Assembly (NCBI GenBank): GCA_903813345.2
Contig: CAIIXF020000012.1
Span: forward strand, 9,134,432-9,198,431
Reading direction: 5' to 3'
DNA length: 64,000 nt
From: Owenia fusiformis
Taxonomy: Eukaryota; Annelida; Polychaeta; Sabellida; Oweniidae
Made by a program: the position numbers and the translations under genes. The notes under the pieces were generated by a model, which worked only from the letters and a program-made list of their open reading frames with translations, searched no databases and was not told where the DNA came from. This document shows, piece after piece, positions 17,901 through 48,200 of this stretch; the first letter of the stretch is position 1; each line of letters starts with the position of its first letter.

Positions 17901-20276
17901 TCATTTTGCAATGATATCAAACATTTAGTACACTCCTTGTAAGTGTAGGATAATAAGAACATCCTATGATTTTTTCAGAATATCATTTTAATCTACTCGG
18001 TGATATTGATATATGCACTCGTTCGCTTTGCTCTCTCGTGCAGATTTCAATATCACCTCGCAGATAAAAATGATATTCCTCAAAATCATAGGATATCCTA
18101 TAAGTATCTCATACTTAAGTGGGTTTGGGGTAGATATCACTCGGGAATATATATCATATCTGAGGAGCGGGCAGGATATATTGTATATGTCCCGCTCCAG
18201 GCCAAATGCGGGCAGATATAATATATCCATACCGCTCCCGGGAATTTTTCAAAAGTTTAAAAAAGTTTAAATATCAAAAGTTTTAATATTTTAATTTTAA
18301 AATTTACATTTTTCAAGTTTAAATGTTACAATTTCATTGTATTGAACAAAAAGAATATTACGAAAATGTTAAATATAAATATCTTGTCATTTGAAAAAGG
18401 TGGAAAAGGTTATATCTACCCTAAACCCACTCAAGTATGAGATACACCAGTTATGCACGGTCGGTTTGGATACATAGAATATCCCTTGGGATATACAATA
18501 CATCTTCCCTCGGTCCCTCGGGAAGATATATTGTATATCCCTCGGGATATTCCCTGTATCCAAAACCTCCCAGTGCATAACCCCTATATATTGGTCTCGT
18601 ATATGTCATACAATTGATATTTGAAACACAACTATTATTCGAACTTTTGATCGAACATTAGTATGATGTGTACTTCAAGGTAATAAAGTAATGATTATGT
18701 ATCATAATAATGTACATTATTCTATCGAGTCTATCGAAATAATCGATGATCCAAAATGCTTGCTTGTATAAATAACCTGTATGTGTAGATAATCGAAAAT
18801 TCCGAAAATAATCGAAATCATATGTAAAATAAACTTTGTATTATTCAAACCACCGCCCCCCTCCACATTTGAAATCTTAGGGTTGAAAAACGTTGGCAGT
18901 GATTTGCCACAAATCTCCGCAGTATACCGCAGTATTTCAATTTACAAGTAGTTGTGGGAGTAATTTGAAAAATAAACCCCACATTTATGAGGGTATCATC
19001 TACAGTTAGATGTGTATGAGCCGTTATCATATATTTTATGATACCAGTACTAGTTATAAATAAATAAGCAGTATATTTAGTTGTGATGTTCACCCGGCTG
19101 AAACGCACAACTGTTAGCTGTTGCAATTGGTTTTATAGGATATAAGCCAACAATGTTCGTTTCGTTTGAGCAGTTGAGGCAAATCATAAAGCCAGTATCT
19201 CAACTATCAATGTAATCACGGGTGTCGAACTCAGGTAAAAAACCTAAAGTATTCATATGTTGTATCCACAGCCTAAACTATCCCTTGGGATTCCTAACAA
19301 GCGCTAGATAAAGAGGGGCTCTGACAAATCAGAATTCAAAGTATATTTTAAGGTTCAGCAGGACATAGAAGAATAAACCCCTAGCATCTCAAACAGAAAA
19401 GGCGTTTGAATGATTTTTATTTATGAGATAGGGATGACAAACTGAATTTGTCATTTTACTCACCGTGTAAATACCATGATAGACATGGAAATCAGAGTCC
19501 AATCTCGTTGTCATGGTGAAATTAAACGCGTCCTTCAGTGTCTGGTGTTTAAACCATTTTAAAGAAGGCGCCTCCATACATCTGAAAATCCATCTTTGGC
19601 TGGGAGACCTGTACTTTGGGGGGTCTCCCGCTTCGACCAGGTCGCTCAATTTGCACGTGTGAAACAATACTACTTGAGCTTGTTTTAATTTGGAGCGATC
19701 AGTGATCGCCTCACACTGGTGGACACCGCAGTTTTTGAAAGCCTCATTAGGAAAGCAACTATGACCAAAGCACTTTGTCCATTCTAATATTTTGATCACA
19801 TCTGTTTTCTTTTTTGTTTTCTTTGATTTTCCATCCCTCTTTACATCTGTTTCATTCAGCTCATCTGTATCATTAATCACAGCTGCAGGGTTAAGATTCA
19901 CATCTATAGTATCATGATCTACAACTGATTCGTCGCTGATGCCGTCTCTCTTTTCGAGATATTTCCATTGGCTTTCAATCGATTTATTGTTCATTGGATA
20001 ATTCCTCGCATATTTGAAGAAAGCACTCTGAAAATTCCCATATTGCACCTTATCTGGAAATAAGGTCATTATTATCAAATTGCCGATGATTAATCCTGTT
20101 GCAATAAAAAATAGGTAGTACATACAGCGTTTCATCATTTTTAATATCAGTTTTATCATTTCAACTTTTGATAAATCATTCATTACTCTGTTTTTCTGTC
20201 TACATGCTATGTCCGTATTAAGTATGTTAAACATTAAGTAAACACTCTGGACTATATAACCTACTGTATGGGGCAT
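14917..20276 (-). CDS. Alpha-(1,3)-fucosyltransferase, GT10 family
   Basis: Three minus-strand exons, 19464-20276, 15980-16190 and 14917-15341, join in frame to 482 residues. The product is a type II Golgi membrane enzyme that transfers fucose from GDP-fucose to GlcNAc-containing glycans. A transmembrane anchor lies at about residues 52-72, followed by a polar stem, the catalytic N-part (SQRWIFRCMEAPS, FNFTMTTRLDSD) in exon 1, and the GDP-fucose binding motif YKFYIAFENS followed by DYVTEKVW (residues 345-365) in exon 3. N-glycosylation sites and a Cys-rich C-terminus (CELC) are as usual. The true start may be M32, M40 or M47, which place the anchor nearer the N-terminus. The subfamily is not assignable, so no symbol is given. 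The large first intron is a transposon trap. Confidence 0.93.
15640..15860. repeat. Diverged repeat with poly-C tract in fucosyltransferase intron 2
   Basis: Starts in a GGGGAGGGGGTCAAA run and ends in a run of about 14 C. The middle GGGCCTTTTTGG phrases resemble those at 13090-13260, so both are likely old copies of one element. Confidence 0.4.
16321..17002. mobile_element. Large palindromic (foldback) element in fucosyltransferase intron 1
   Basis: The left end AATTACATTCGTATGATG is matched by the complement of the right end. Pairing recurs across most of the 682 bases, including CAACGAAATATTTGTAGATT against its complement and an inner stem ATTAATATTTGAAACAC with GATCGGACAT. The centre is near 16690. 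There is no coding content. Parts of a second copy lie at 17030-17217 and 18592-18725. Confidence 0.75.
17218..18591. repeat. Cluster of nested and adjacent hairpin modules
   Basis: At least five inverted-repeat pairs are packed together: CCTATGCCAAGTAGAGTTT (17231) with its complement near 17511; CGGTCGGTTTGGATATGGGG (17537) with the complement near 17647; TCCTACACTTAGTGTAC (17686) with the complement near 17930; ATCCTATGATTTT (17962) with the complement near 18080; and TAAGTGGGTTTGGGGTAGAT (18115) with the complement near 18416. A second GCACGGTCGGTTTGGATA hairpin follows at 18456-18580. Loops are G/C-rich (for example CTTCGGTCCCTACGGTCCCT). Stretches of low-complexity A-rich DNA (17365-17510) separate some modules. 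Confidence 0.7.
17754..17857. repeat. Three tandem mini-hairpins with GATATCGTGACGATATACTC units
   Basis: Three copies of a self-complementary unit, roughly CGGAGGATATCGTGA followed by TGATATACTCCG, lie within 105 bases. They sit in the loop between the arms at 17686 and 17930. Confidence 0.75.
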
Positions 20277-22318
20277 GGGCCAAGCGCACTCAGCTGTGAA
20301 TCATTGACACACAAACTGGGTTGACCGCATCAGTGGTTTTGCTCTACATTTGATTGTACACTGAGTGTCACAGTTCAGTGGAATAGGAGGATAAATGTCT
20401 CTTTTAAAGTTCTCATGTAAAGTTTGAAAATGATCATTCACTCACTATTTTTCCTGACTTTAAAGTTATTTTAGAGATTTTTGAAAATATATTTTTTAAA
20501 GTTGTCAGCATTTCATTTCTCAAATATTCAAATTTCCCGCCATTTTTTCAAAAATAGTTGAATTATTTAAATATGTCAATCTTTTCTAAATATGCTTCAA
20601 ACTTCAAAAATAAAGCAATGTTGATTGTCTAACCAGGTAAAAGGAAGATTATAATATGTTTTAGAAATAATTGGTTTCTATGAGAACTAAAATTTTGAAA
20701 TGCATTTTTCTCTGAACCATTTTCATTCATTGATGACTTACATTTCTCGCTTATCTATGAACCACTTGCAATTTCCTTAATGTTTTCGACGAAATACATG
20801 TGATGATGAATACTATCATGGATTGGTATGAATTATCGCTTATCAAAAGATAGTTGTGACCTCTAAATCGTCTCCAATGTTTTCGGTTCGCTTTTGTCTT
20901 CAAATACAAATACTGTGAGGTCGAAATGATTTCCGAAGTACAGGGATTGTGCAATGCTTATGAGTATTGACATATTAAATATGAACTACTTTTCAAGTTA
21001 CAGGAAAAATCGTAAAATAGCGTGTAAGGGATGCCATTTTCAAGATGGCCTGCCATTTGTTTCTTAAATATGTACTTTGTTGATCAGTATTTATGTAAAG
21101 GCCAGCAAGTAATTGATAAGACCTCTTTCAAACCAATGAAGTGAAAGTCAATGGTTTGCTAAAGTGTGGCGAACCAATGGAAATTCAGGCCCAACAAGGT
21201 ATTATTTCAGACAGAACAATACTACCCACGGACCATTATTAGCATGGGACTTCCCGTTGGCCAATATTACCAGAGAATAATATTCCAAGGGGACCAATAT
21301 TCCTGGGACATCAATTATCAAAACAAAACTTATGATTTTAATAGATATTATGTACAACTTTTATTTAAAAAGTATTATATACATACAACAAAATAATTTA
21401 CATTTTAAACTTTAAATCGTGTATCTATTTTTATAAAATTCAAGCAACAATTCAAAAATGGACTTTCTATTAATACAGGGCTAATAGCTGAATAATTATC
21501 TTATCACTTATATAGTTATATGTATGTGGACGGAATATTTATGAGATCAGTTGTAAACATATTCAGTTCATGAGAAATGGTTACCAGAATTTCTTACTTG
21601 TTAGAAGATTGTAGGCCACTTTCTTGGGAGTGCATGTAATTTCTAAATGAATGCTCAGTCTTTTATTTCAAAGGAGATTAATGTATTTTGTTGACAAAAA
21701 GAACCCTAGATTGTTGACAAAATCAACTATGAAACAACCAGAATCTATTTCTATTTAAAGGGGCCATAAAGAAAAGACTTTAGAGTAGCTTTATAAAAAC
21801 AGAAAGTTTCACAATGTTTTTGCAATTTCCAACAGTTCTTCCCAATTTATTTCACACATTATGCAATTCTTTGATTTTTAATCTTTCAGGCAATACTTAA
21901 AATGTGGAAATTCGAGATCGTATGAACATTTCAAAAGTTGACATGTACGCATTTTAAATCTTAAATAACTACTATATTTTATCAGATATCTCAGTTGTTG
22001 TTTTTTTTCAAAGTAAAATCAAGATTGTTAAGCTAAGGAAGCAAGGGAAATAAAGACATGCCTTTTTAAAGGAACTGCCACTTTAAATGAAAAACTAACT
22101 GCTATGAGGAACAATTCTATGGACTGTACAGGCCCATAGCCAGGGGGGGGGGCTTCTGTGTGTTCGAGCGAACCAGCCCCTGATCAAAAATTCTTTCAAA
22201 AACATGCAGTTTTCACTCTTCTATGCACAATGTTGTCAAATGTAAACCTCCGCGGAATTTTTAAGATTGATTTTAAGGATGGCTGTATGCTTTTAGCTGT
22301 GCAGTTTAGCTGTATATT
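20277..22318. other. Intergenic between fucosyltransferase and CFAP251
   Basis: No gene supported. 21170-21315 holds degenerate direct phrases built on GGACCAATATT / CCAATATTACC. A run of G follows CATAGCC at 22135-22151, a motif common at ends of old repeats. It should contain the fucosyltransferase 5' UTR/promoter (near 20277-20500) and the CFAP251 3' UTR (just below 22319). Confidence 0.45.
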
Positions 22319-28300: not shown

Positions 28301-31300
28301 AAATGCACAACAGCGAATCATCTGGCCTCTGTCAAAGTATCGAGATGCAATGACTCTCCTAGAATAAAAGGAATATATTTCTTAGAAAGGCCAGAGGGAA
28401 TCATTTGAAAACTGAAGTGATGTAAAGAAACTATTGTGTAATCAAATGAACTACTTTATTCTAAATTAATACGAGTTTCATTGTTTAAAGTAATAGCAAA
28501 AAGTGGAGAACACGATCAAAATAATAGGTGAGGTATAAGAACATTATAACGTTTATATCAAATATTTTTACTTACTTGGTTTCATAATCCCAGATCTGCA
28601 GCAGTCCAGAGTAACTCCCAATAACAACCTTGGTCCTGGAAAACATCAAAAATGACACTTAGTACAGTGAATCAAATCTCTAACACCAAAACTTTTTAAA
28701 TTACACTTAGTACAGTGACCAATTCAAATCTCTAACACCAAAACTTTTCAAATGACACTTTGTACAGTGAATCACATCTCTAATACCAAAACTTTTCAAA
28801 TGACAGTTAGTACAGTGAATCAAATCTCTAACACCAAAACTTTTCAAATGACACTTAGTACAGTGAATCACATCTCTAATACCAAAACTTTTCAATTTGA
28901 ATACATTTTCTTGCTTCAAATTTTGTCATCTCCCATTGACTCACATATCAAGAAAGCCTGAAATGTGAACACCTGCTAATATGAACACTTTTGGCCAGTC
29001 CCATTGGTGTTTGGATTAGACAGGTTTTACTGTATGTGGCATTAGGTACATAAAACAGGCTATTCACACTCCTTCCACTTTTTCATTTCTGCAGGGTATA
29101 GATGGAATTTGCCTTGGCCCAGAGATTTGCATAAATTATATTGACCAATTTTTCTTTCAAAATCTTGCAATTTTTCACCATTTTGAGCATTTTTAAGAGA
29201 TTTGAGCCAGGGTTGTCTAATTTGATTTCCACTGGAATTTTTTAAAAAATGTACCCAACTTGGCAAAAGGTGGCTAAGGGCCTGTTAAATATTGTTTTAT
29301 TAACCTGCATTAATTGAATTAAGTGTATGAATAAAAACTTCTTGAAGTATTCAGTTGCTTTTACCATGGACTTTCTTTTGAAAAACCACGCTTTTACTAA
29401 ATATGGGCTTTAAAGTATCTGTCCATTTTGAATAAATAATGAATCATAAATAACAATTTGACACAAAAGATTAATGAATAACAAATTAATTAAACCAAAT
29501 ATTAACGGATTAATTAAATCAATTATCTTCAGTATATATCATAGTACAGTAAAACCTGTCTAATCCGAACACCCATGGGACCAGCCAAAAGCGTTCAAAT
29601 TGGCAGGTGTTCAAGTTTCGAGGATATTGTTGGTTGGGGGGGATTTTCATTGTTCAGTCCACTATATTGAATACTTAATACTTAGTCAGAAAACAATACA
29701 TGTTGTTGATGAGTTTATTCTACAATAGGCCTATAGCCTGCATGTATATGCTATGTTTTATTTACATTTTGAACAATTTCATTATTTTTGGAAAAATAAC
29801 TCTTTAATTTTGGCAAAAACTTTGTAATACACTGAATAAGTATATGATAGTCTTGTATGAAATCTCATGCTTATTAAATGACTTATCTCATATTATGGTT
29901 ACATAGCACTGCTTTACTTTAGCTTGAAAAAGTCGTTCATTGTTGTTTGTTTGTTGGCACTTTTGGCATTAGCAATATTTGTGTAGATACCCTCTTCAAT
30001 TAATTTTTCACGAGTGCTCATTCGAGATGATGCATAATCTTTCAAAATATCAAGGGCATTCAGGATGTCAGATGTGCCTTTTTAGGAGGCATTTTAGTGA
30101 TAGGATATTACGAAGTTGAATTTTTTCTCTTTCTCGTGATATAATCTTGTCTGCAAATGTGTCTGTGTTGTCTTTGTGATTATAAAACATTTACTGATTG
30201 AATCCTAGCTATCATAACAGACCCATGGGATATAAAACAGTTAAGACTTGTTCATAATCCAAATCAAAAACATCCAGTTAATTTAAAATAAGGATAAACC
30301 AATTATCTACCAGATTCTCACCTTTCTCTTAATCCAAATCAAAAACATCCAGGTAATTTCTAATAATGATAAAACAATTATAATCTTGTCTGCAAATGTG
30401 TCTGTGTTGTCTCTGTAATTATAAATCACTAACTGATTGACTCCTAGCTATCATAACAGACCCATGGGATATAAAACAGTTAAGACTTGTTCATAATCCA
30501 AATCAAAAAAAAACATCCAATTAATTTAAAATAAGGATAAACCAATTATCTTCTTGATTCACACCTTTCTCTTAATCCAAATCAAAAACATCCAGGTAAT
30601 TTCTAATAATGATAAAACAATTATAATCTTGTCTGCAAATGTGTCTGTGTTGTCTCTGTGATTATAAAACATTTACTGATTGAATCCTAGCTATCATAAC
30701 AGACCCATGGGATATAAAACAGTTAAGACTTGTTCATAATCCAAATCAAAAACATCCAGTTAATTTAAAATAAGGATAAACCAATTATCTCCCAGATTCT
30801 CACCTTTCTCTTAATCCAAACATAAAACATTCAGTTCTTTTCTAATAGGATAAACCAATTAACTCCTGTATTCACACCTTTCCAAATCATCCTGTTGTTC
30901 TCCACAATTAGGGATGTCATTGAGACTTAAATAAGTTAATTAGGACAATATTGGTTCTTTGATTACATTGCATATACCAATATGTGGTTTTAATTGAAAT
31001 GTCCAGACATTTGATTTCTGATGAAATGTTCAGATTAGACAGGTCAGTTTTTCAAATCTGGTTGTTCACTGTTCAGATTAGGAGGTGTTCAGATTTCAAG
31101 GTTTTTTTAACATGGGAGTCAATGGGAGGAAAAAATGGGACCGAAAAAAAGTGTTCAAATAACCCAGATGCGAGTAGAAATAATCTTGATTTACGTCATT
31201 AAAAATTAAAAATTCAGTCAAAGTAATATCATATTTGAAATCTACATGTAAAATTACTTTTAGAAATGTGGTTTTAAAAATTGTTTATCAACTTTGAAAA

Positions 31301-34300
31301 ATTAATTTTCTTTGAAAGTGTGACTTCTAGCTCGGGGAGATTCCCCATAGACCCCATGCTATAAAATCACAAAAAATGAAATATCTTTTCTTTGAGTGGA
31401 CAGATAATATTTTGCTTTACTGGACATATTTTCATTAGTATAAGTATCAGACACATAAGGGTTATATGAAAATTGAGCCACTTAAATTGATAATATTCAA
31501 GTTTAAGGGAACTTTCTTATATACCTGCCATGTTAATTGACCCGAATCAGCCACCTGGTGGTGAAACTGGTAACTACCTACTCGCATTTGGGTAATTGGA
31601 AGGTGTTCGGATTAGCCAGGTGTTCAGATATACAGGTTTTACTGTATATAGATTATCTGTTAATTATTAATGTTTCAAGTGTCCTCTGATTATACTCTCA
31701 CCCTTACAAACATTTTCAGACTTTCTGAAAGTTTATCAATTTTGAGTTTGGACTTGCATTTGTAGAAAATGTCCACATTATACCTTCACTAATTTTACAC
31801 TACATATATTTTAAGACTTGCATTTCAACAAATAACCCAATAATAAAAATGGTTAATGCATTTGCATCAAGACTTATGATGGAAATTTATTTAAGGGCAT
31901 TTGTATCATATTTTACATTAAGTATGATGATAAGTTCAAGTTAGATAAGAAAAAACATCACAAGGTCACATAGACATATTAATACATGGTCTACATTCAA
32001 ACTTAAAAATATTTCAAGAGAATATGGAAATCTTTAAAAAGATTAATTGAAATAATAATCAAATAAAAAAATCAAAAAAATCATATGGTATATCAAGTAT
32101 GCAGTCAAATCAATAGAGGCATGATTTAAAATGACACATGATGTTGAGACTGAAAAAATGGACATGTTGTTGTTTTACATTGTTATGCTTTATGTTGATT
32201 TTCTTGTTAAAAACTCAGATGAGGACACCAGCAACCATTAGAACTACATTTCAATTAGAAAAAGAAATCAATTATCTCTGGAAAAAGGATGATAATATTA
32301 TACTTAAAGTTAAAAATGTCGAACAAAGTGCTCAGATTGTGAATCATACAGAAGGATATGTCAGAAGTTTAAATCGTGAACAGAGTTTATCAATACGTCT
32401 TTCTGATTTGAAAAATCAAGTAGAGAACTTGAGGAAGATAACACTACAGGAAGTGAAATATCACAATTTTTACGATTTTCCAGGAAAATTAGACCCAGGT
32501 GAAATGATTTATGCTGATGAGAAGAATTACTTTTCTAAAGTTTCTGAAATTAATCGAGTCAAAATAGCACACCTTCATCGAGTCAAAAGTTCGCTGAGTA
32601 AGAATTACGTGAGAACTGAAATATACGATGCAGCAATAACGCAACAATTTTGCCACAATTTTATGAAAAAATTTGGAATCAATAAGACATTTGAAGGAAA
32701 ATTCTGCCATATTGGCATTGAAAAATCGCTATGTCAAAGAGAACTTGAACGAAGACATTTTAATTTTTATGATGTCCATCCAAAAACAATTGATCAACAA
32801 GGAGATAGAAGAAGGTTTGGTCACCAAGGAGATGGAAAAACAAGGTTTGGTCACCAAGGAGATGGAATAACAAGCTTTGGTCACCAAGGAGATGGAGAAA
32901 CAAGCTTTGGTTACCAAGGAGATGAAAAAACAACTTTTGGACATTTTTATATTCAGGTTATACAGATGGGATATATTGAAACATTAGGACGTGTCACAGT
33001 ATACGACGAGGACACATTTGTGACCATATTTCCCGAAATGTGTCTCCCTGAGACCAATTTTGAATCAACTTACAAACAATTTTACAAAACAGAGGATGAA
33101 GTGTTCATTATTTCTCAATTTGGTGGCAATAATTTTTATCATACAATGGTGGAATTAATACCACGTTTGAGCCTTTTTATGGATCTTCTACAAAGTCATC
33201 CAAAAATCAAAATCCACATCATGGATATGAGCTTCACAAGAGATGTTTTAGGGTTACTTGGATTCGATTCAAATCGAATCGTATCAGGTTTTGTAAAAGC
33301 AAAGATAGCGTACCTTCCTAGGGGAACTAAGTGCGGCAATTCTGACCCTTTAACGCTACAGATTCTGTCTGATAAATATTTAGATGTACTCTCAAATAAA
33401 ATCAACTTCAACATACTCTCAAATAAAATGGATTTACACCACCAGCGCAAACATCGAAACTCCATTCTCCTTATCAAACGATCTGGAACCCGAAAATTCA
33501 AACAACATGGCCATATAAGAAACACAATCTCAAATATTGCATCAAGAAATAATCTTAACTTCCTAGAATTTTCTGATGTACCCCAGAAGAAAATACTTGC
33601 AACAGTCGCATATTTTAACAATGCCTTTTTAGTTATTGGAGCACATGGAGCGGGGTTATCAAATATTTTGTTCAGTCGCCCTGGGACTTTTATTATTGAA
33701 GTAGTCTGTCAGGGATACATAATTAACCCATGTTATTTAGACCTTAGTAGAAAACTAGGTCACAGATACTATGGTATAACATCAATGAATAAAGAAAAGA
33801 ACTGCTTTAACGGTGAACTTGAGGTTAATGTGACAGAATTAGTTGAAGCAGTAGAGTTTTTTGTGCAACAATTTATCCTCAATAAATCAGAATTATGAAT
33901 TTGTAGTTATGGAATCTGATATTTCTTAAATAATAGTTTCTGCAAAGCTCTACAGAAATGTCTAGCTACTACATTAATGTGTTTATGGAGTTACTCTGGC
34001 CATGTGTTTATGAGTTACTATGGCAACATGTTGTTGGAGCCACTACGATAATATGTTGATGTAGCTACTATGGTTATATGTTGATGGAGTTACTATGGTA
34101 ATATGTTGATGGAGCTACTATAGTAATATGTTGATGGAGCCACTACAATAATATGTTGATGGAGCTACTATGGCAATGTGTTTATGGAGTTACTCTGGCC
34201 ATGTGTTTATGAGTTACTATGGCAACATGTTGTTGGAGCCACTACGATAATATGTTGATGTAGCTACTATGGTTATATGTTGATGGAGTTACTATGGTAA

Positions 34301-37300
34301 TATGTTGATGGAGCTACTATGGTAATATGTTGATGGAGCCACTACAATAATATGTTGATGGAGCTACTATGGCAATGTGTTTATGAGTTACTATGGTAAT
34401 ATGTTGATGGAGCTACTATGGTAATATGTTGATGGATCAACTACAGTAATGTATTTATGAGTTAATCTGGTAACATGTTGATGGAACTACTATGGTAATA
34501 TGTTGATGAAGCTACTATGGTAATGTGTTTATTAGTTACTATGGTAACATGTTGATTGAAGTAATGTGGTAATATCTTGATGGAGCTATTCTGGTTGTTT
34601 ATTTAATTATGGCTATATGTTGATTATGTTACTATGGTAATATGTTGATGGAGCTACTATGGTAATATGTTGATGGATCAACTACAGTAATGTATTTATG
34701 AGTTACTCTGGTAACATGTTGATGGAACTGCTATGGTAATATGTTGATGGAGCTACTATGGTAATGTGTTTATGAGTTACTATGGTAATATGTTGATTGA
34801 GCTACTATAGTAATGTGTTTATGAGTTACTATGGTAACATGTTGATTGAAGTAATGTGGTAATATGTTGATGGAGCTATTCTAGTTGTTTATGTAATTAT
34901 GGCTATGTGTTGATTATGTGCTAAAATCACTTACTCTTCGGGATGTACTGCTAAAGCGTGCACAGCAGAATCGTGTTCTCTGTGTATCACTTCAGTGGTG
35001 CTGCCATCTGTAGTCACATGTGCACAAATTGCCGTCGTTGTGCCAATAATAAAATTCTTGACAATAAATTGTTTCGCTTTTATTGTGGCATCAGGCGGAT
35101 AATCACTATCAGGTTTTGTTCTGTAATAAAATTCAAAATGTCTCAATCCCATAATGCAATAGTAAATAAAGAAACAAGCAGATGTCACTGAAATAATTTA
35201 ATCCCATAATGCAAAAGTGATTTGAGAGAAAAGCAGACATCATTGAAAACGAAATATTTTACTACTATAATGCATCAGTAAATTGAAAGATGAGGAGACT
35301 TTGTTGAAAAATAAATATTTTCATCCCATAATGCAGTAGTATTAAGTTGAGACAAGCAGACGTCATCTGAAATCTCATCAGAAAAATGCATGTATCATAC
35401 AACTAAATTACACTCTACAAGAAATGCTAATGTAATATAAAGGAGTAGACTTAACTAGTAAGGATGAAATTTACATACTTCTGCAATACACTAAGACCAA
35501 GATTCTACAATGTAAAAAATATGAAAAAAATATTTTTTACATTGCATAATTTTAAAGACCAGTGAACACCTCTCTAGTAAACACATTGTGAATACCATTT
35601 CTCATAGCATACTCCAATGACTTCTGTATTAAAAATCTTCTGTGTTGACCTCTTAAATTACTATTTACTCATGAGACTGATCATCTTTTTTGGATCCAAG
35701 GGTGTTCATTGTACACATGGTTTATGATAGTACAGTACAATAACCCAGATGCGAGTAGAAATAATCTTGATTTACGTCATTTAAAATTCAGTCAAAGTAA
35801 TGTCATATTTGAAATCTACATGTAAAATTACATCTAGAAATGTGGTTTTAAAAAGTGTTTATCATATTTGAAAAATTAATTTTCTTTGAAAATGTGACTT
35901 CTAGCTCGGGGAGATTCCCCATAGACCCCATGCTATAAAATCACAAAAAATGAAATATCTTTTCTTTTAGTGAACAGATAATATTTTGCTTTACTGGACA
36001 TGTTTTCATTAGTATAAGTATCAGGCACATAAGGGTTATATGAAAATTGAGCCACTTAAATTGATAATATTCAAGTTTAAGGGAACTTTCTTATATACCT
36101 GCCATGTTAATTGACCCGAATCAGCCACCTGGTGGTGAAACTGGTAACTACCTACTCGCATTTGGGTAATTGGAATACATCACATAAATACTTTCATCTT
36201 TGTATGATTATCTAGTATGCTTTAGACATTTCATCTAGACTCAAAGTGATTATGTTAAAACAACAATGTTTGTCAGTGTATATTGTCTGGGGGAGAGTCA
36301 ATACAAGCTTTCTTTGGGAAAATGTACTTTAAAGCGGCTCTAAGGTCTGTGGAGAAAAAAATGGAGAAATTTTAACTTTTCTGAGCTATCGGGGCGAAGT
36401 TTGGTCTAACATCTTCTTCCTTATTCCTATTTTATACAAATGTATGCATATGGCAATATTCATCAACCAGTAGAACTGGCAAATCGTTTAGAATCTACAA
36501 TTCCATACAAGGAGTCCCACTCATAGATTTTTTCAAATTCTTTCCAAGTTGACGTCGAAACACCTAGCGATGAAATTGAAACTAATTTTTTTGGCCGCTC
36601 AAATCGATAAAATCTCTGACAGTGTGAGTCTTTTTATGAAAACTTTCTTATAGAAATCACTTGACGATTATTAGAAAGCATTAAAAGTTGAAACTGAAGC
36701 GTAATCTGAAATAAAAGTGAAAAAAAATTGCGCGGACGACAGAGAACAAACTTCCGGTTTAATAAAAAATGGCGGAGACGAAAGGAGAAAGGAAGACGAA
36801 AAATTGGAGGATTATCGATCGATATAAGGTATGTGCACAAATTCTAGTTACATACATGGAAAATAGATACATTTTTGAAGGCAACAACATATTCAAAGCT
36901 TTCATTTTACGATAGGCCCAGGATCATTGGATACGACTCGGCAGTCGATGTTCCCACTTTAACTTTTGACAAACATTGGTATTTTACCATGACTACTAAT
37001 ACTACAAGCAAGGTTCTATTACTAAGGCCATCTACAAAATAAACACATGGTATATTGAGGGTCTGGAACATACCCATGAAGGTACTATAATACAGTGCTC
37101 TAAGCAAGAATGGTATGATGGTATATCAATGGTCAGCATCAACCAAAAACAGGCCTTTACAAATTAATAATTATCAGTTTTTTTGAATTTTTTTAGCCTG
37201 TTCAGCCCTCACTAGTCAAACTTTTTGAAAGAATTTATACATTTTATTTTATTTGAAATAAAAAATTATTTTCCAAAATCCGCTCAACAGATAATTAACT

Positions 37301-40300: not shown

Positions 40301-42875
40301 TTTGTATGAAGCTGAGCAGTACAAACTGGAGTATCCTCCTCAGAAGTCCAATCCCAGATGGCTACAGTCTAAAACATTGATTATTACAAATTGGAGTATC
40401 CTCCTCAGAGGTCCAGTCCCAAATATGTACAGTCTACAACATTGTAAGGAGCATTCTTTTGTTAAGATAAACCTTTTTAATGTTTAATTGTTTTATTTCC
40501 TTATTTGGAAAGGGTTCTTCAAGTTATGATGAACGAAATAAACCAAATATAGCTTAGGATGGGTGTATCATATATTGAACCTCTAACCTATGAAATCATA
40601 TTTGGTACCAATGTGCTAATTTGAATAAAATATGTATGGGTTAAATCATTCCATAATAATAATGGTGATATCTGGAAATGAGCCACATTCTTCAGAATAT
40701 TCATACTTTATTCTGTATAGAGAGCCCATGCTCCTATCCAATAATTATCATTTCATATCCCTCATTCATGCTGTATTTTAATATATACATATGTAATGCT
40801 GTGAATAATTAATAAATTTAAAATAGTGATTCCAGTATTTACACAGATCAATGAATTTTCAATGATTTACTTGCTTTATTTGTCTATCTGCTTTAAATGG
40901 ACATATTAGCCTTTTGCATATTATTGACATAGACATACCTGAGTTTCTGCAGCACTTATTGTGGCGATATATTTAGCATTAGGGGTCATAGCAATAGCTT
41001 GTACTCCACCATCCGGATGGGGGTCAAATATGGTCCGTACTGGAACCCTGCAAGGACAGCAGAGAAGTTATGTATATGCTCACTTTTTATTTAGATAAGG
41101 ATTGAAGTTATGGATGCTTGTCTTTACTAAAATATTTATTTTATAAGTTTTGACAAAAATACATAAAAAAATAAAATGTGATTAAATGCACAATAAAATG
41201 TGATTTAATGAAATAATAAAATATATTTGAATACATTTCAGATTGACTCCTCTGAAAAATGACCCGCAGTAATGTCTTTTATTTTAAATGATTCCAGTAA
41301 AGTAAATTAGACTAAAAGCAATACACACATACCCTGTGTATGTGTCCCAAATGATGATGATGTTATTTTTTCCTTTGTCTGCTGTGGCCAGCCAGCGTTT
41401 ATCTTCACTAGTACATGTAGCAGAGATAGCATTGGACTGAAAGGAAAAAGGATATAAAGTCAAACCAACTTCAAACAGTGTTCACTAAAGACAGATATCA
41501 CTCACCTTCCCTAATTTTTGTTTTATGTACAACTTGAAATGCAAGCCTATAATGCAAAGTGCGCTAGGCAGCGACTACTGCAACTACTGTAAACTTTTTG
41601 AATTGAATAAATATTTAATGAACTGAAAAAGATATTACTTGAGTTACATGTAACTTCTTTATTCAAAAATGCTAGTTGGTTGATTATATTGGTTAGATGG
41701 TGTGGAGTGGAGAATATTTTTGATTTTGTACTCTTGAGATTATACTCATGTGCATTTAGGATAGTTTCCAGCTTTAATCAATATTACACAAAATGCTACA
41801 GATTTATTTTATGTTGTTAGATTTAAGAGAGTCAAAGCAAATGAGGCAAGAGAGGCGGGAGCGCTGATAGAGGACCTGGCCTCATTCTAAAAGCCCAATA
41901 ATATTCAATTCAATCTGTAGAATTGTTGTTAGATAACTAACTGAGCCATTGTTTAACTTACATGTCCTTGTAACAGGTGCTGTAGATTGTTCTTAAAGTC
42001 ATAGAGGATGCCTGTGTGTGCACATGAGTACATTATCATATCTCGCTCTGAATCTGTCAGATTCAACACTGGGACATGCTTGTTAAGTCCAAAAGACCAG
42101 ACTTGGTTCTGAAATGAAGAAGAGAAATGATTCACTCTGTAGTTTATTTAGAAAAAATAAAATACAAAAATTTTGATCTTCCAGAATTGTTTTTTTTCGT
42201 ACAACTTAGGCTCATAAGTTAGGCTCAAAACATTATCTCTTACATCTCTGGTCCTAAGGGAAGAAGGTTTAATCCTGTTTGAATTCCATCTTTTTAATAA
42301 GTTATTGAATGATTTCAAGTGCAATACAGGATATATTCTGCTCGAGAAATTCCGTATTGGAACGAGACGAAGTCGAGTGCCAATACAGAATATTGAGACA
42401 GAATATATCTTTTTTGTATTGCACTTCAATTCATTCTATAACGTTTTTATCGTGTGATCCTCTGTATTGCTACTGAGAATGTCCCCTCTGTACCAATATT
42501 TTCTGTATTACGACAAATATCATATCATTGCGCGCTGTGATTAAATTCTCAAGATGAAGTAATTAAAATCATAGTACAATTTAGGAAATTCTGATGATGA
42601 TTCCCTAGCTTATACAGCTCAAATTTTAATATTAGTATCTTGATATCATAATCAGAATAGCAGAACAAATAAACATCAAACAAACCAATTGTTTTTAAAA
42701 AATAAATTAAACTTACCAAAGCATTGGGGTTGACATTTTTCTCTTCCTGTACATCTGTTTTCTCTTCATTTACATTTGGCGGAGGTTCAGGAATATTAGA
42801 TTCTCCTTCAGGTGGTTGTCGAACAACAGTGTCTCCCTCAGCTTCAACAGGGGGTGTCTCTTCATTATCAGCCAT
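22319..42875 (-). CDS. CFAP251: Cilia- and flagella-associated protein 251 (WD40 plus EF-hand-like C-terminus)
   Basis: Twenty-three minus-strand exons: 42717-42875, 41962-42108, 41333-41436, 40939-41047, 40210-40368, 39771-39939, 38919-39018, 38560-38697, 37811-37864, 34935-35120, 28576-28635, 28279-28358, 27785-27924, 27239-27412, 26798-26941, 26419-26501, 25966-26110, 25559-25650, 25227-25355, 24210-24315, 23433-23523, 23024-23158, 22319-22584. All phases agree; 2970 bases give 989 residues. CFAP251 (WDR66) is an axonemal protein of the calmodulin/radial-spoke-associated complex at the base of radial spoke 3. After a Pro/Glu-rich N-terminus come [15 protein letters not shown] and [10 protein letters not shown], many WD40 repeats ([35 protein letters not shown]), and two degenerate EF-hand-like units ([23 protein letters not shown]). 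The start follows the family pattern, though the acidic N-terminus is shorter than in vertebrates. Exon 9 uses an unusual donor (GTTTGAG). Intron 10 holds a nested gene. Confidence 0.95.
23847..24139. mobile_element. TTAA-flanked MITE with perfect palindrome
   Basis: TTAA at 23843-23846 and 24140-24143 flanks inverted ends CCTCTTGAAT. Inside is the perfect 20-base palindrome GTGACGGATATATCCGTCAC (23864-23883), with a related GACGAGAAAATCCGTCAC nearby. The CC start and TTAA target fit a piggyBac derivative. It lies in CFAP251 intron 20. Confidence 0.75.
24410..25215. repeat. Satellite of about 117-base units in CFAP251 intron 19
   Basis: About seven head-to-tail copies, each with TGGGCCTCTGTAAGTGGAAC, GAGGGTTCAC, GTGGAATCTGATATAA, GGAACACCTCCCATAAATGG and CATTAACTACATGTAAATAA. 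The left copies are more diverged. The GTGGAACACC phrases resemble the pogo-type terminal fragments at 9280 and 28968, so the unit may derive from such an element. Confidence 0.85.
25360..25485. repeat. ACAAACAATTACAAT short tandem repeat
   Basis: Six or more copies of a unit of about 15 bases (ACAAACAATTACAAT) lie next to the acceptor of CFAP251 exon 19. Confidence 0.8.
27962..28136. mobile_element. MITE, GTCACATTTG family copy 3
   Basis: Ends AATGCGTCAATCATATTTGA and, inverted, CCTCAGTCACATTTGCTCTA flank about 130 bases with inner pairing (TTGTGAAG, CTGTAGCTTCACAA). It lies in CFAP251 intron 12 and matches the ends of the copies at 8120 and 13983. Confidence 0.55.
28645..28905. repeat. 47-base minisatellite abutting CFAP251 exon 11
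   Basis: Five to six copies of a unit containing CTAACACCAAAACTTTTCAA, ATGACACTTAGTACAGTGAA and TCAAATCT. The array starts about 10 bases from the acceptor of exon 11, so it overlaps the probable branch-point region of that intron. Confidence 0.85.
28965..29035. repeat. pogo/Tigger-type terminal fragment
   Basis: GTGAACACCTGCTAATATGA at the left and TTGGATTAGACAGGTTTTAC followed by TGTA at the right match the ends of the element at 29547-31644. It is a solo or very short derivative. Confidence 0.6.
29914..30092 (-). pseudogene. Transposase remnant (N-terminal start plus C-terminal tail)
   Basis: An ATG at 30090-30092 starts a short MPPKK-like reading that stops after ten residues. An overlapping frame reads [20 protein letters not shown] and continues to [12 protein letters not shown] before TAA at 29914-29916. 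Basic MPPK starts and a QTTxxDFF tail are typical of Tigger/pogo transposases. The frame break and missing centre make it non-functional. Confidence 0.5.
30125..30880. repeat. Tandem of about 240-base units inside the Tigger relic
   Basis: About three copies of a block containing ATAATCTTGTCTGCAAATGT, CTAGCTATCATAACAGACCC, GTTAAGACTTGTTCATAATC and CACCTTTCTCTTAATCCAAA. The last copy is truncated. Copies are nearly identical, so the amplification is recent relative to the host element. Confidence 0.8.
31162..31593. mobile_element. ACCCAGATGCGAGTAG MITE, copy 1
   Basis: Inverted ends ACCCAGATGCGAGTAG and ACCCAAATGCGAGTAG bound about 430 bases. It is nearly identical to copy 2 at 35743-36167. 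It inserted into the right terminal region of the Tigger relic, splitting GTGTTCAAAT from TGGAAGGTGTTC. A 3-base target duplication (AAT or TAA) is possible but ambiguous. Confidence 0.75.
32138..33898 (+). CDS. GT61-family (DUF563) glycosyltransferase, intronless, nested
   Basis: A single open frame of 586 residues. Residues about 10-26 form a Cys/Phe/Leu-rich signal anchor, giving a type II Golgi or ER enzyme. The C-terminal half is a GT61 catalytic region: [17 protein letters not shown] (about 328-345), a Rossmann-like stretch with [15 protein letters not shown], and the hallmark [20 protein letters not shown] (about 501-520). GT61 includes EOGT, POMGNT2 and plant xylosyltransferases; the acceptor here is unknown. 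At residues 223-268 is an in-frame tandem of about five 10-residue units (FGHQGDGxTS). The gene lies within CFAP251 intron 10 on the opposite strand and has no intron, consistent with retroposition followed by long maintenance, though no poly-A tail was found. ATG 32138 is the first in-frame start. Confidence 0.9.
   Translation: MMLRLKKWTCCCFTLLCFMLIFLLKTQMRTPATIRTTFQLEKEINYLWKKDDNIILKVKNVEQSAQIVNHTEGYVRSLNREQSLSIRLSDLKNQVENLRKITLQEVKYHNFYDFPGKLDPGEMIYADEKNYFSKVSEINRVKIAHLHRVKSSLSKNYVRTEIYDAAITQQFCHNFMKKFGINKTFEGKFCHIGIEKSLCQRELERRHFNFYDVHPKTIDQQGDRRRFGHQGDGKTRFGHQGDGITSFGHQGDGETSFGYQGDEKTTFGHFYIQVIQMGYIETLGRVTVYDEDTFVTIFPEMCLPETNFESTYKQFYKTEDEVFIISQFGGNNFYHTMVELIPRLSLFMDLLQSHPKIKIHIMDMSFTRDVLGLLGFDSNRIVSGFVKAKIAYLPRGTKCGNSDPLTLQILSDKYLDVLSNKINFNILSNKMDLHHQRKHRNSILLIKRSGTRKFKQHGHIRNTISNIASRNNLNFLEFSDVPQKKILATVAYFNNAFLVIGAHGAGLSNILFSRPGTFIIEVVCQGYIINPCYLDLSRKLGHRYYGITSMNKEKNCFNGELEVNVTELVEAVEFFVQQFILNKSEL
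32805..32945 (+). repeat. In-frame 30-base minisatellite within the GT61 gene
   Basis: About five copies of a 30-base unit built on TTTGGTCACCAAGGAGATGG. It encodes FGHQGDG-x-T-(R/S/T) decapeptides between [11 protein letters not shown] and [10 protein letters not shown]. The length is a multiple of three, so the frame survives. Confidence 0.9.
33945..34920. repeat. Minisatellite carrying X-box (RFX) motifs, CFAP251 intron 10
   Basis: About 40 units of a 24-26 base repeat of the type GGAGCTACTATGGTAATATG followed by TTGAT, with a longer higher-order pattern (33985-34170 is repeated at 34185-34370). Variants GTTACTATGGCAAC (34014-34027, 34213-34226) and GTTACTATGGTAAC (34535-34548, 34825-34838) match the RFX X-box consensus GTHNYYATRRNAAC exactly. 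Several more differ only in the last base. It ends about 15 bases from exon 10 of the ciliary gene CFAP251. Confidence 0.85.
35743..36167. mobile_element. ACCCAGATGCGAGTAG MITE, copy 2
   Basis: Same ends and nearly the same body as 31162-31593 (shared phrases GACTTCTAGCTCGGGGAGAT and TCAGCCACCTGGTGGTGAAA). It lies in CFAP251 intron 9. High identity suggests recent activity of the family. Confidence 0.75.
36745..36828 (+). promoter_or_regulatory. Candidate antisense promoter and first exon in CFAP251 intron 9
   Basis: CTTCCGGTTT (ETS-like) is followed by AAAAATGGCGGAG (YY1-like, where ATGGCG often marks starts). From the ATG at 36769 an open frame of exactly 20 codons, [20 protein letters not shown], ends at a consensus donor (AAG|GTATGT, exon end 36828). 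This is the arrangement of a housekeeping first coding exon on the plus strand. No convincing second exon was found in the window, so it may be an orphan, a relic or an upstream exon of a non-coding transcript. Confidence 0.35.
38325..38520. repeat. CAGTGCTA-type degenerate minisatellite, CFAP251 intron 8
   Basis: Repeats of TTCAGTGCTA(T/C), AGTACCATTTGG and AATTAGTGCCACTCAG-like phrases, about 18-36 bases each. Confidence 0.6.
39249..39575. repeat. 65-base tandem repeat, five copies, CFAP251 intron 6
   Basis: Units start near 39249, 39315, 39380, 39445 and 39510, each with GTGATTGCAACAATTTACCA, TGTTTGCATGCAGCTCAT and GGTAACCAGTCGG. The last unit is truncated. Confidence 0.9.
39625..39745. 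repeat. TTTGACTCTCCCTTTAAC short tandem repeat
   Basis: Seven or so copies of an 18-base pyrimidine-rich unit just upstream (in transcription, downstream) of CFAP251 exon 6. Confidence 0.85.
42301..42442. mobile_element. Foldback MITE in CFAP251 intron 1
   Basis: GTTATTGAATGA at the left pairs with TCATTCTATAAC at the right. The stem AAGTGCAATACAGGATATAT pairs with its near complement. The loop has CGAGACGAAGTCGAGTGC, a self-complementary G/C-rich core. Confidence 0.7.
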
Positions 42876-45292
42876 TTTGTTCTGGAATGATAGGGGTCTT
42901 TACAGATGAGGCATGAGACAAAGAGCCCTGATATAAGAGATATACTATTCCCAATAAATTACTTTAAAACGTGTACAGGACAGGTGTATAAGTGAAACAA
43001 AATTGGTATTTTAAAATAGTGTTCCACTTACAGAAGTTCAGTTTAGTTAATTGTTCATACATGTCATAGGAATGGGGATCAAATAGTTTTTTTTTTATCT
43101 TCAGTAGAAGGTGGAGAGTGTGATGTTAATCTTCTTCTTTTAAACACCTCCATATTGAAAATATTTCAGAAGTTTTCAAATGAATATGACCGACTGGTCA
43201 ACAAGATACATGATGGGTTCCTGTTTGCCCTCTTTCACCGGACGGAAGTTCAGGATAACTCAAACGAAATTACTGTACAATGTACATCATAAAAAAATAG
43301 ATACTGAGTGAAGCATTTTACATTGTTTTTATGGATTGGAATTCAAACTAGATTTTTCTAAGCATATTTGATGTGTAGTCATATTTATACAATGTATTGA
43401 TAAATGATGGACAACAATTTTGTTCGGGTCAATTCCAGTTGTGAACTTCCAGTTAGAAAAATGAAACAAGTCGGGGACCAATCTGACGCAATTTATTTAT
43501 TTTCAGCCATATAATCACACGCAGACATCTATCGGAAAGAATACATCCAATTGGAAATTTTGGCAAAGATTGATCCGGTAAGTCTTCAGATACGTTCACA
43601 ATTGAAGGAAGTCGATACATTTTTGACCAGTGGCTTTTGGTTGATTTGTTTTAACATCAAAATTGGAGCTCATTTCATTTTAGGCGTATCTTAGTCCACA
43701 GTGAACCGAATGAGTTACTCCAGACTCTTTGCATCATTTTGACAGTTGGAATACCTGGAATAAATCTACAGGATATCAAAACTGGTCAACTGGGAGTAGG
43801 CCTAAGCTTAGATCTAATATTTTATTTTTTATTATTTTTTCGGAATATCTTCAAGCTATTGCCATTTTTATTTTTGAATCACCTTTCTGTCTTTCTTAGT
43901 TGCAGAGAAGCCCCACATTCTTATTACCCAGGGGGCAGAAGAAAGTGGGGAAGAAGAAAGTTAGTCATATAAATCTGACCCTCGTATGATGTTATTTGTT
44001 GTTATTTTTTCTGATTTGGATATTTATTTTTTCTTATTTTCTTGCATACAAGGGTCATACACACTCCGCGCATCTAAATTGCGGGAAATGCTTTCCTGGC
44101 CTGTCTACCCAACCAAATTCACACAAATGATAAATAAATGTCTTTGCTTCAACTATAAAGTATTTAATCTTACCTTAGACACGTAAAACGCTTGGTAATT
44201 GAAGAAATATAAGCATGCCGCTTGAATTTTAAAATTTTTTCATTTTGCCATGCCAAGGTCACTTCCGGGTTAATCTAAGTCTAGATGTAAAACTATATCA
44301 AACGAAATCATAAGTACTTGTTACACGAAGATTCAGTTGAAAGGGAAGCAGTGTCGTTAAGAAGGGAAGTTATTTGGAAAAGTTATTGTTTCAAAATGAG
44401 AAAAGTAATAAGTATAAGAGAACGGCTTTGGAATCGATCTCTGTGTAATAAATAATTATGATTCCGTTTCGATACATGTTTTACATTTAGACTACCGGAA
44501 ACAGCATTCAGCAACATGGCGGGCGATAATGAAAATATAATTCAATTGATCATGTTTCGTCAATTATCAAGCGTTTTACATGTCTAAGGTAAGATTTAAC
44601 ACTTTAATGTTGGAACTAAATAATTACTCGATAATTTGTGTGACTTTGGTTAGTATGGTAACTATGGTTACCGAGACAGGCCAGAAAAGCGTTTACCGCA
44701 ATTTGTTCCATATAATACCTACGACGGTGTATGCAAAGAAAATGATAAAAAATAAATATCCAAATAAGAACAAGGAATATCGAAGAACAGCATACAACGG
44801 TCGGATTTATATGACTAAAGAAAGTGGACGACGTTCAATTTTGGAAAATTGAAATTTATAATTTTCACAAGTCAAGGGCTCAAATTTTAGTAAAATCATA
44901 CCATATTGAAGCTAACGAAATTTCTATCAATCTCAGGTCGAAACTAAATTGAAATACTTACATTTCCAGTGTTAAATTCAATAATTATCTCCAAATTTTG
45001 TAAAAATTATTTTTGTCACCTTAGCGACAGCTATTGCGCATTCTTACTGCGCATCGGAAGTCAGTACTTTGTTATTGTTGTAAAATATAAATCTTCTAAA
45101 TCCAATGTTTTTAAACATATCAGGGTTTATAGATATTCTTATTGTTCCAAAGTATATGAATTACATGTAATTTATATTTTTCATTGATTGCATAAGGTGT
45201 AAAAACATGTTTTACTTTTGAATTTACGACATCTCTTGACAAAAATTGGAAGCAATGAAATTTTGAAAATTTATTTTGACTGGGATTTCAAA
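42876..45292. promoter_or_regulatory. Divergent intergenic region between CFAP251 and PIGL
   Basis: No confident gene. ETS-like sites occur at about 43240 (ACCGGACGGAAGTTC), 44263 (ACTTCCGGG) and 44494 (ACCGGAAAC). A YY1-like AACATGGCGG at 44514 starts a 23-codon ORF (44516-44587) that ends at its stop one base before a consensus donor (AAG|GTAAGA). This could be a 5' exon with an upstream ORF for PIGL. At 44648-44672 GGTTAGTATGGTAACTATGG and then TTACC contain two overlapping X-box-like sites, each with one mismatch. A 90-codon ORF at 44580 spans the putative donor and is unlikely to be real. Confidence 0.4.
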
Positions 45293-48200
45293 ATGTTTTT
45301 ATGGCTACTTGGGCCTGTTCTAGTCCTTATAGCAGTGATATTTGGTATTCACAGAAGTCTTAGTAGTACACTCGATACAAGAAATCCGTTTTCAACAGCA
45401 CCAAAAACTATCTTGGTTATCACAGCGCATCCAGATGATGAATGCATGTTTTTTGGACCAACAATTCAATATTTGACAAGGATTGGTCATGAAGTCTCCT
45501 TGCTTTGCTTATCTGTTGGTATGTATTTTACACGTAGTAATTCGCACAGCCTTGGCTGGTGATTTCAATTGTGAATATAGTCAATTTCAATTGGTTTGTG
45601 TGCACAGTGCAGTTCAGCAGTACGTAGCTAATCATCCCCCACTATTATATTGACCTAAAGTCTGTGTGTCAAATAATGTATTTTTGCAAATGATAAAGCA
45701 CTGTGGTCTTTTGATTGCTTGTCTTTTTACGTTTTATCGGTGCACAACCCAATGGAAAAGGACTTTACAATATGTAAATGAATTTTAAAAGTGATGAAGA
45801 TTGGTCGCAATGTCTCCTTGCTATGCTTTTCTGTTGGTATGTATTTTTCACGTAATAATTTGTACAGCCTTTGTTGGTGGTTTCGAAGATGAAAACATGT
45901 ACTTTATCAAACATTGGTCTATTATGAATAATAAGCTAACTCTTTGTTTCCAGGAAACTATTACGGCAAAGGAAAGGAACGTATCAAAGAATTTTATCTG
46001 AGTGCTAACATTCTTGGAGTCCCACATGACAAATGTGCAATAATCGATGACATGTATGTTATGTTTTCATTCAATTTAATTTTAGGACAAGAATATGATA
46101 TTGAGTTACTTCCGTCCCTCAAGCATCTTTAAACTCTGGTTGTGGGAGTACATGTAGGTTAATGTCCATGCAATAAAATTTGCAAGCGTAAAGTGATTTA
46201 GAAAAGGGAAAAATCAATATGTTTACTGAATGTGTTTAATCTGAAATGTAATCACATTTTAGAGTATAATTAAAATACTCATCTGCAATAACCTCCCACT
46301 CTGGGCTAATTTGGAAACTCATTTTAATTCTTTAAGAACCCCATCGTTGGTTCTACTACATTCTATGCTACGTTTGAGGATAGGTTCGAAGATTAAAGCA
46401 AGATGTAAGAACCCCACAATTGTGTTATTTGGGATCATAAAATTGAATAAATCTGTTATGTATATGATATTTTAAATATGCCTTGCTCAAATATGCTAAT
46501 ATAGGTGAATGATATCGATATCTATGAAATGGTAAGATTCCCAAAATATGAAGTGTAACAGTGTTATGAGTGCTTTAGATGTTACTGGTACTAAAGACTT
46601 ACTGTATGATCTTTTTTCCAGATCTCTACAGGATGGCCCAGGTGATTGGGATCTCACAGCTGCTTCAAACATCATAGAAAAACACCTTCATAAGTTAGGA
46701 GCCAATTCAGTAAGTTTAGATTGGATCTTTATATTCGATATACAGTTTTTTAGAATTGATTGTTGGTTGATCATACCTTATATAAACATTAATTTCTTCC
46801 TGACATTCTTCAAATTTTTTGTTTTCAATGATTGACTTTTTATCCAATTTTCATCTTGTTCATATTATTATAGAATTTGGATGTTTTTTTTTCAGATTAT
46901 CACATTTGATGAGCACGGAGTGAGTGGTCATCCAAACCATAAGGCCATCTATTGGGCAGTAAGGTAATATAACATTAAAAGATTCATATAAGGTTTCTAA
47001 TTTTTTTGATTTGCTGAAACTAATTAATTATGCAAAAATGTCTCCATTTAGAATTTTAATGATCAATTTTTACTTTTTTGAAGATGCCAAATAATTTAAA
47101 AATTTATGTTAAAAACTAAAAATCAAACATTTGCCAAAATTGCCAATTATTTGGGGGGGGGTGGATATACTTCACAGCTGCATGAAAAATAGATTTTCTT
47201 CACTGACAAATGCTATAAATTTATTTAATAGTTATTACCTCATTTATAAGTTCAGGTGCCAACTAGATGTTTACAGTTAATTTCATGTTGTGCACATATG
47301 GTTAATACAAATTGTCAATATTGGAAAAAAGATATTAGTTAATATTTTCCACATGCTTGTCCAAGCCTCTATAGCTCAGTGGCAGAGCACTGGTCTTGTA
47401 AACCAGGGGTCATGAGTTCAATCCTCATTGGAGGCTAGTGTCAATCAAAAAATTTTGTTACAATATTTTATTTTTGTTTTATTACAATATTTAAAAACCA
47501 TAAGGCCATCTATTGGGCAGTAAGGTAATATCACATTAAAAGATTTCATTTGTTTTAAGGTTTCTAATTTTTTGATTTGCTGAAACTAATTGATTATGCA
47601 AAAATGTCTCCATTTAGAATTTTAATGATCAATTTTTACTTTTTTGAAGATGCCAAATAATTTAAGAATTTATGAATTTTTGTTAAAAACTAAAAATCAA
47701 ACATTTGCCAAAATTGCCAATTATTTGGGGGGGGGTTGATATACTTCACAGCTGCATGAAAAATAGATTTTCTTCACTGACTAATGCTATAAATTGATTT
47801 AATAGTTATTACTTCATTTAAAAGTCCAGCTGCCAACTAGATGTTTACAGTTAGTTTCATGTTGTGCACATATGGTTAATACAAATTGTCAATATTGCAA
47901 AATAGATCTTATTTAATATTTTCCACATGCTTGTCCAAGCCTCTATAGCTCAGTGGCAGAGCACTGGTCTTGTAAACCAGGGGTTATGAGTTCAATCCTC
48001 ATTGGAGGCTAGTGTCCACCAAATTTTTTGTTCCAATTTTTTATTTTTGTTTTATTGCAATAGTTAAAAATGGTGAAAATAAATGTGTCCATTTTAATAA
48101 ATTTCTTTCAGAATAATTTTTATTGCATAATTATTTTGTATTGCATAATTATTTTGTATTGCAGATACATAATGATTTTGTGCATATCAAATTAACAAAT

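Follow-up and report, generated by a model that had tools for sequence, protein, structure and literature searches.

Exact X-box matches and a forkhead motif in an intronic minisatellite of the Owenia fusiformis CFAP251 gene

Can a tandem repeat that contains exact copies of the X-box, the RFX site of ciliary promoters, regulate the axonemal gene in which it lies, or do such matches fall out of the repeat's own turnover? The question is raised by a stretch of 64,000 nucleotides from the annelid Owenia fusiformis (assembly GCA_903813345.2, contig CAIIXF020000012.1, positions 9,134,432 to 9,198,431; hereafter the window, with positions counted from its first letter), where a minisatellite occupies an intron of CFAP251. 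An original prediction had described this array as packed with X-boxes and had offered two roles for it, an amplified enhancer or a sink that titrates RFX. Our analysis indicates that the array is probably an ordinary intronic minisatellite with X-box variants that arose by chance. What the letters show directly is how the repeat is built, that blocks of it are duplicated, that exact X-box matches occur in it and that the columns holding the X-box are poorly conserved.

Structure of the array

Tandem Repeats Finder and wraparound alignment resolve positions 33964-34914 into 39 head-to-tail units, mostly of 25 or 24 base pairs (bp) with a few shorter ones, and the array thus falls within the class of minisatellites (head-to-tail units of about 10-100 bp). 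Two pairs of duplicated blocks are superimposed on the units: A1 and A2 are nearly identical (Table 1), and B1 and B2 differ by nine substitutions over 239 aligned bases, with an additional stretch of about two units in B2. The array probably grew by slippage or unequal exchange of units, followed by the two block duplications. Its tandem units of about 25 bp, their 39 copies, the internal block duplications and the presence of unit types are shared with other minisatellites and intronic variable number tandem repeats, whereas the inclusion in the unit of a forkhead consensus and, in four copies, of the X-box consensus sets it apart.

Tandem repeats are abundant across the window generally, with 54 Tandem Repeats Finder rows, some of them overlapping. 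No further copies of the unit were found elsewhere in the 64-kb window at up to three mismatches, and exact unit patterns had no match in viral or prokaryote collections, neither of which is likely to contain animal DNA. A coding role for the array was rejected because no stop-to-stop open reading frame of at least 70 codons overlaps it, and membership in a known RNA family was rejected because Rfam at gathering thresholds returned only two tRNA genes, elsewhere in the window (47365-47436 and 47939-48010, plus strand).

X-box matches, their lineages and their scores

Four exact matches to the consensus GTHNYYATRRNAAC lie in the array, at 34014, 34213, 34535 and 34825, just where they had been predicted. 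Across the window the consensus gives 12 strand-hits, compared with 0.63 expected from shuffled windows; these represent just seven distinct sites (four in the array and three outside it, the latter accounting for four strand-hits), since each array match reads on both strands. The four array sites form two pairs, GTTACTATGGCAAC in blocks A1 and A2 and GTTACTATGGTAAC in blocks B1 and B2, each pair created by block duplication, and they are therefore not independent. With 4 of 39 units matching, and these being two duplicated pairs, the array cannot be called packed. The five predicted near sites that miss at the last base were recovered as well (one of them at 34387, formerly placed at about 34386), together with a sixth one-mismatch site at 34702 that misses in the core.

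The columns of the unit suggest how these variants may have come about. The unit consensus has C in column 3 and T in column 15 and misses the X-box at these two positions; column 15 is C in six units, all of which have T in column 3, and column 3 is T in 13 of the 39. The 25-bp unit would by chance lie two substitutions away from an imperfect X-box palindrome, and because of this proximity the RFX consensus can be matched by variants with T in column 3 and C in column 15. Two such variants would have arisen, or would descend from one, and each would have been copied once by block duplication, with no RFX protein expected to use the array sites for the regulation of CFAP251. Columns 2-15, which hold the X-box, vary more than the remaining columns (mean entropy 0.65 versus 0.38) and rank 22nd of 25 in conservation among the 14-column windows of the unit, which is no sign of constraint. 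Within minisatellites, homogenisation contributes to conservation as strongly as selection does. If the array is not an enhancer, it would illustrate that a repeat whose unit lies near an inverted-repeat motif easily yields several apparent sites from one or two events, so that sites in tandem arrays need to be counted by lineage.

After removal of duplicates, 2 of 21 units match the X-box, where column frequencies predict 0.48 or 0.56 (P = 0.058 or 0.081; the blocks were assigned by hand, the two P-values reflect which copies are kept, and all motif columns are present in 19 of the 21 units). The corresponding test on all units, in which duplication is ignored, gave P = 0.005 (35 of 39 units complete), and at least four exact X-boxes were obtained in 11 of 20,000 column-permuted arrays and 14 of 20,000 random-unit arrays. 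The X-box matches exceed chance for the chosen motif in this array, and the chance expectation grows once the choice of motif and all 15 arrays of the window are counted, a set that includes the CFAP251 array and was compiled by hand from the 54 Tandem Repeats Finder rows, with a minimum length of about 100 bp and with overlapping rows merged. Dyad-preserving scrambles of the consensus gave at least four sites for 5 of 20,160 motifs in the CFAP251 array and for 15 of 20,160 in any listed array. At these rates, a library of several hundred motifs would not rarely be expected to yield such a match somewhere in the window.

Site quality was assessed with an RFX matrix built from 28 fly X-boxes, representing 14 genes in two species (Table 2 of PMC2375033). 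Omitted from the matrix were CG12548 and CG13178 (of 16 dRFX-dependent genes with a conserved X-box), two extra CG9595 sites and the second CG15161 row. The 28 reference sites span 14.15-24.21, are not independent and are scored on their own training set, and these choices, the omissions included, would be expected to raise the reference range and so to disfavour the array. The result is carried by the half-site columns, with no score given to spacer bases. The best score in the window belongs to GTTACTATGGCAAC (17.08), which five of the 28 reference sites do not exceed, and this pair is the only one inside the reference range, at its low end. GTTACTATGGTAAC scores lower than all 28 reference sites (12.62), as do the near sites ending in T, which have lost a C found without exception in the reference half-sites (56 of 56); the unit consensus itself scores -3.17.

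Comparison with known X-boxes gives a similarly mixed picture. The array sites share with those of ciliary promoters the form of an imperfect inverted repeat with a 2-bp spacer that fits GTHNYYATRRNAAC, and by reading they also fit the fly consensus GYTRYYN1-3RRHRAC (PMC2375033). The same paper reports that RFX dependence of a fly gene is not predicted by an upstream X-box when the consensus is at its most degenerate. They differ by one base, again by reading, from the stricter form GTNRCCN0-3RGYAAC (PMC10530576, PMC3414849): the left half, GTTACT, departs from GTNRCC in its final C, and the right half agrees with RGYAAC (PMC10530576). They further differ in lying deep within an intron and in scoring below most fly sites. 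Functional X-boxes cluster around gene starts: human ones are described within windows of -500 to +500 (robust) or -2300 to +1400 (permissive) around transcription start sites, distal sites being the exception (PMC5838959), and worm X-boxes show a preferred region of -50 to -200 from the ATG (PMC1794439). The array X-boxes lie 8,037-8,861 bp downstream of the start codon at 42875, far from the gene start and outside the permissive human window, and the candidate GTTGTTCGACAAC in coding exon 1, though inside coding sequence, is better placed; no forkhead motif occurs within 60 bp of that candidate.

The proposal of a sink, according to which the array would titrate RFX, draws on the density of X-box half-sites, with 18 in 951 bp compared with 72 in the remaining 63 kb. 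The sites that fall within the reference matrix range number only two, however, and form a single duplicated pair, and the lack of further unit copies in the window (at up to three mismatches) speaks against it too. Sinks known to matter contain far more sites, and two to four good ones would not be expected to titrate a factor. We rejected the sink as the main explanation because its good sites are too few, and consider its probability close to negligible. A literature search for the string GTHNYYATRRNAAC found it in no paper of the collection searched, and searches there that combined RFX/X-box or Foxj1 with minisatellites, tandem repeats or transposable elements likewise found none.

The forkhead motif and the case for an enhancer

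A feature missed by the original prediction is a forkhead motif present in 36 of the 39 units and on one strand throughout (RYMAAYA, here ATMAACA). The columns it occupies, 17-23, are better conserved than any other seven consecutive columns of the unit, whether or not duplicates are included, and TGTTTAT stands 2 bp upstream of each exact X-box (4 of 4), so that all four have an RYMAAYA motif close by. The density of RYMAAYA reaches 37.9 per kb in the array and 5.0 per kb in the window outside it. At least 36 forkhead motifs were obtained in 100 of 20,000 permuted arrays and 105 of 20,000 random-unit arrays, in a test that was post hoc, the motif having been chosen after the sequence had been seen.

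These observations could point to a CFAP251 intronic enhancer made of repeated Fox/RFX modules, a reading that we regard as unlikely, in which a FoxJ1/Fd3F-type factor would bind the motif that almost all units carry and RFX dimers on two to four good X-boxes would link the array to the promoter. The occurrence of the window's top RFX matrix scores within the array fits this reading, and so do two known systems in which Fox and RFX factors are partners at ciliary genes. Fly Fd3F and Rfx work through closely spaced RYMAAYA and X-box motifs, and CG9313 (WDR66), the fly homologue of CFAP251, is named as an fd3F target in common with Foxj1, among targets with Foxj1-dependent homologues (PMC3414849). 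Foxj1 binding in Xenopus fell on Rfx2 knock-down, and its authors propose that Rfx2 loops distal Foxj1-bound enhancers to promoters (PMC5245798). The CFAP251 array shares with both systems an RYMAAYA motif adjoining an X-box in a motility gene with an fd3F/Foxj1-target homologue, and differs from them in that the motif pair is multiplied in tandem and sits about 8 kb inside the gene.

Several points count against the enhancer, beginning with the poor conservation of the X-box columns and the restriction of exact sites to two duplicated pairs. The array is far from the start, whereas in the fly paired Fox and X-box motifs are mostly found no more than 50 bp from one (PMC3414849), and the worm FKH-8 peaks near X-boxes are reported to show no match to the canonical forkhead site (PMC10393296). 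The forkhead test was post hoc and the motif is short, with RYMAAYA found within 50 bp of 37% of random window positions, and another array of the window (9898-10040) is nearly as dense in it, at 35.0 per kb. Were the array an enhancer, the two-factor code for motile cilia would have been multiplied by a minisatellite within one of the genes that this code targets, and changes in copy number would alter ciliary gene dosage. A more specific version, which appears distinctly unlikely, holds that tandem amplification turned a Fox/RFX module into an intronic enhancer of an axonemal gene, with the forkhead site kept in 36 of 39 units and complete X-boxes generated and multiplied as the minisatellite turns over; the strength of a motile-cilia gene would then be tuned by the dynamics of the repeat.

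The preferred reading of an ordinary minisatellite must also be weighed against results that favour RFX use. The original prediction had asked for a matrix scan against shuffled units, and the array came through it, a best score of at least 17.0 being reached in only 1 of 5,000 column-permuted arrays; the same score was reached in 7 of 5,000 arrays built from random units that vary as the real ones do and in 7 of 5,000 dinucleotide shuffles of the array (20, 55 and 81 of 5,000, respectively, at a threshold of 12.6). None of the 14 remaining arrays on the list exceeds 5.84, and the two patterns together, four or more exact X-boxes and 36 or more forkhead motifs, were seen in none of 20,000 permuted and none of 20,000 random-unit arrays. 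The six units with T in column 3 and C in column 15 represent three lineages by hand block assignment, and selection for complete sites would give the same pattern. For the RFX monomer, the consensus GTTRCY is reported to be conserved in both fungi and animals (PMC10530576), and the left half GTTACT agrees with it. Because Fd3F/Rfx targets in the fly often have just one strong X-box half-site (PMC3414849), the weaker array sites could still count. Finally, the axonemal class of CFAP251 fits RFX control. The RFX interpretation is supported in part, insofar as the sites outscore permuted units, and is weakened by the poor conservation of the X-box columns, the distance from the ATG and the score of 4.25 for the near sites.

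The scale of the chance expectation bears on this balance. A site scoring at least 17 was present in 43 of 200 shuffled windows, and one such site per 64 kb is therefore not rare; the rarity resides in the concentration of RFX-like sites within the array. Outside the array, five matrix sites reach 12.6 compared with a whole-window shuffle mean of 1.84, and three sites fit the consensus exactly; this excess suggests that the shuffles understate chance here.

Host intron and neighbouring features

The array sits in a CFAP251 intron of 6,299 bp on the minus strand, 20 bp from the last unit to the splice donor (Table 1). The flanking exons, one ending at 34935 and the next starting from 28635, join in frame when read by eye, and the joined exon pieces (434 residues) match CFAP251 chains in solved axoneme structures (E = 6.2e-116 for 8j07), in agreement with the earlier assignment of the gene as axonemal; the same query gave E = 4.4e-117 to a chain of 9fqr labelled adenylate kinase 7. 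The placement in a CFAP251 intron was thus borne out by protein match and splice frame, although the intron is number 9 in an exon model built by eye from the open reading frame list and not number 10 as first given, a discrepancy that a missed exon would reconcile.

The same intron contains a single-exon GT61 glycosyltransferase open reading frame antisense to CFAP251, whose stop codon lies 65 bp from the first array unit. The array fills the gap between this stop codon and the CFAP251 donor and might serve or oppose the nested gene, for instance as its 3' flank or as a transcription buffer against antisense CFAP251; the argument is one of position, and we consider such a role very improbable.

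Table 1. Coordinates of the array, its motif sites and the associated gene features
Feature	Coordinates	Strand	Details
Minisatellite, 39 units	33964..34914	+	Unit consensus AGCTACTATGGTAATATGTTGATGG; Tandem Repeats Finder, wraparound alignment
Block A1	33964..34162	+	Second copy A2 at 34163-34361, identity 194/199
Block B1	34386..34626	+	Second copy B2 at 34627-34914
Exact X-box GTTACTATGGCAAC	34014..34027	.	Block A1; matrix score 17.08
Exact X-box GTTACTATGGCAAC	34213..34226	.	Block A2; duplicate of 34014 site
Exact X-box GTTACTATGGTAAC	34535..34548	.	Block B1; matrix score 12.62
Exact X-box GTTACTATGGTAAC	34825..34838	.	Block B2; duplicate of 34535 site
Near X-box, last base T	34089..34102	.	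Matrix score 4.25; same type at 34288, 34387, 34628, 34776
Near X-box GTTACTCTGGTAAC, mismatch in core only	34702..34715	.	Half-sites as at 34535; matrix score 12.62
Forkhead consensus RYMAAYA (ATMAACA, unit columns 17-23)	33980..34914	-	36/39 units; 12 sites fit stricter RTAAAYA
CFAP251 intron with array	28636..34934	-	Donor GTAAGTG at 34934, acceptor TTTTCCAG ending 28636; sequence read by eye
GT61 glycosyltransferase open reading frame, single exon	32135..33898	+	Antisense to CFAP251, same intron; 587 amino acids stop to stop; Pfam E = 7.6e-10
X-box candidate GTTGTTCGACAAC	42815..42827	.	Sequence as read on the minus strand; CFAP251 coding exon 1, 48-60 bp past ATG at 42875; matrix score 16.78

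Further repeats were observed in and around these genes. The GT61 open reading frame contains an in-frame 30-bp tandem repeat (32812-32937) encoding units that resemble a 10-residue sequence, and two dispersed-repeat copies in the same orientation (31158-31601 and 35739-36175, 96% identity over 444 aligned bases) flank the GT61 gene and the array on both sides. A 48-bp minisatellite (28650-28895) ends 14 bp before the acceptor of the array-bearing intron, so that minisatellites lie near both the donor and the acceptor of this intron. Elsewhere in CFAP251, a partial copy of a WD-repeat exon (40365-40433, minus strand) lies just upstream of the full exon, inside a 65-bp tandem duplication.

Other genes were identified in the window as well. 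Fucosyltransferase exons with Pfam matches to Glyco_tran_10_N and Glyco_transf_10 extend over 14917-20300 (minus strand), a MORN-repeat exon lies at 10260-10523 (minus strand), and the start of a PIG-L de-N-acetylase gene was found at 45203-45562 (plus strand). The segment 56167-56682 (minus strand) gave a match to Med13_C that is below the cut-off of that family.

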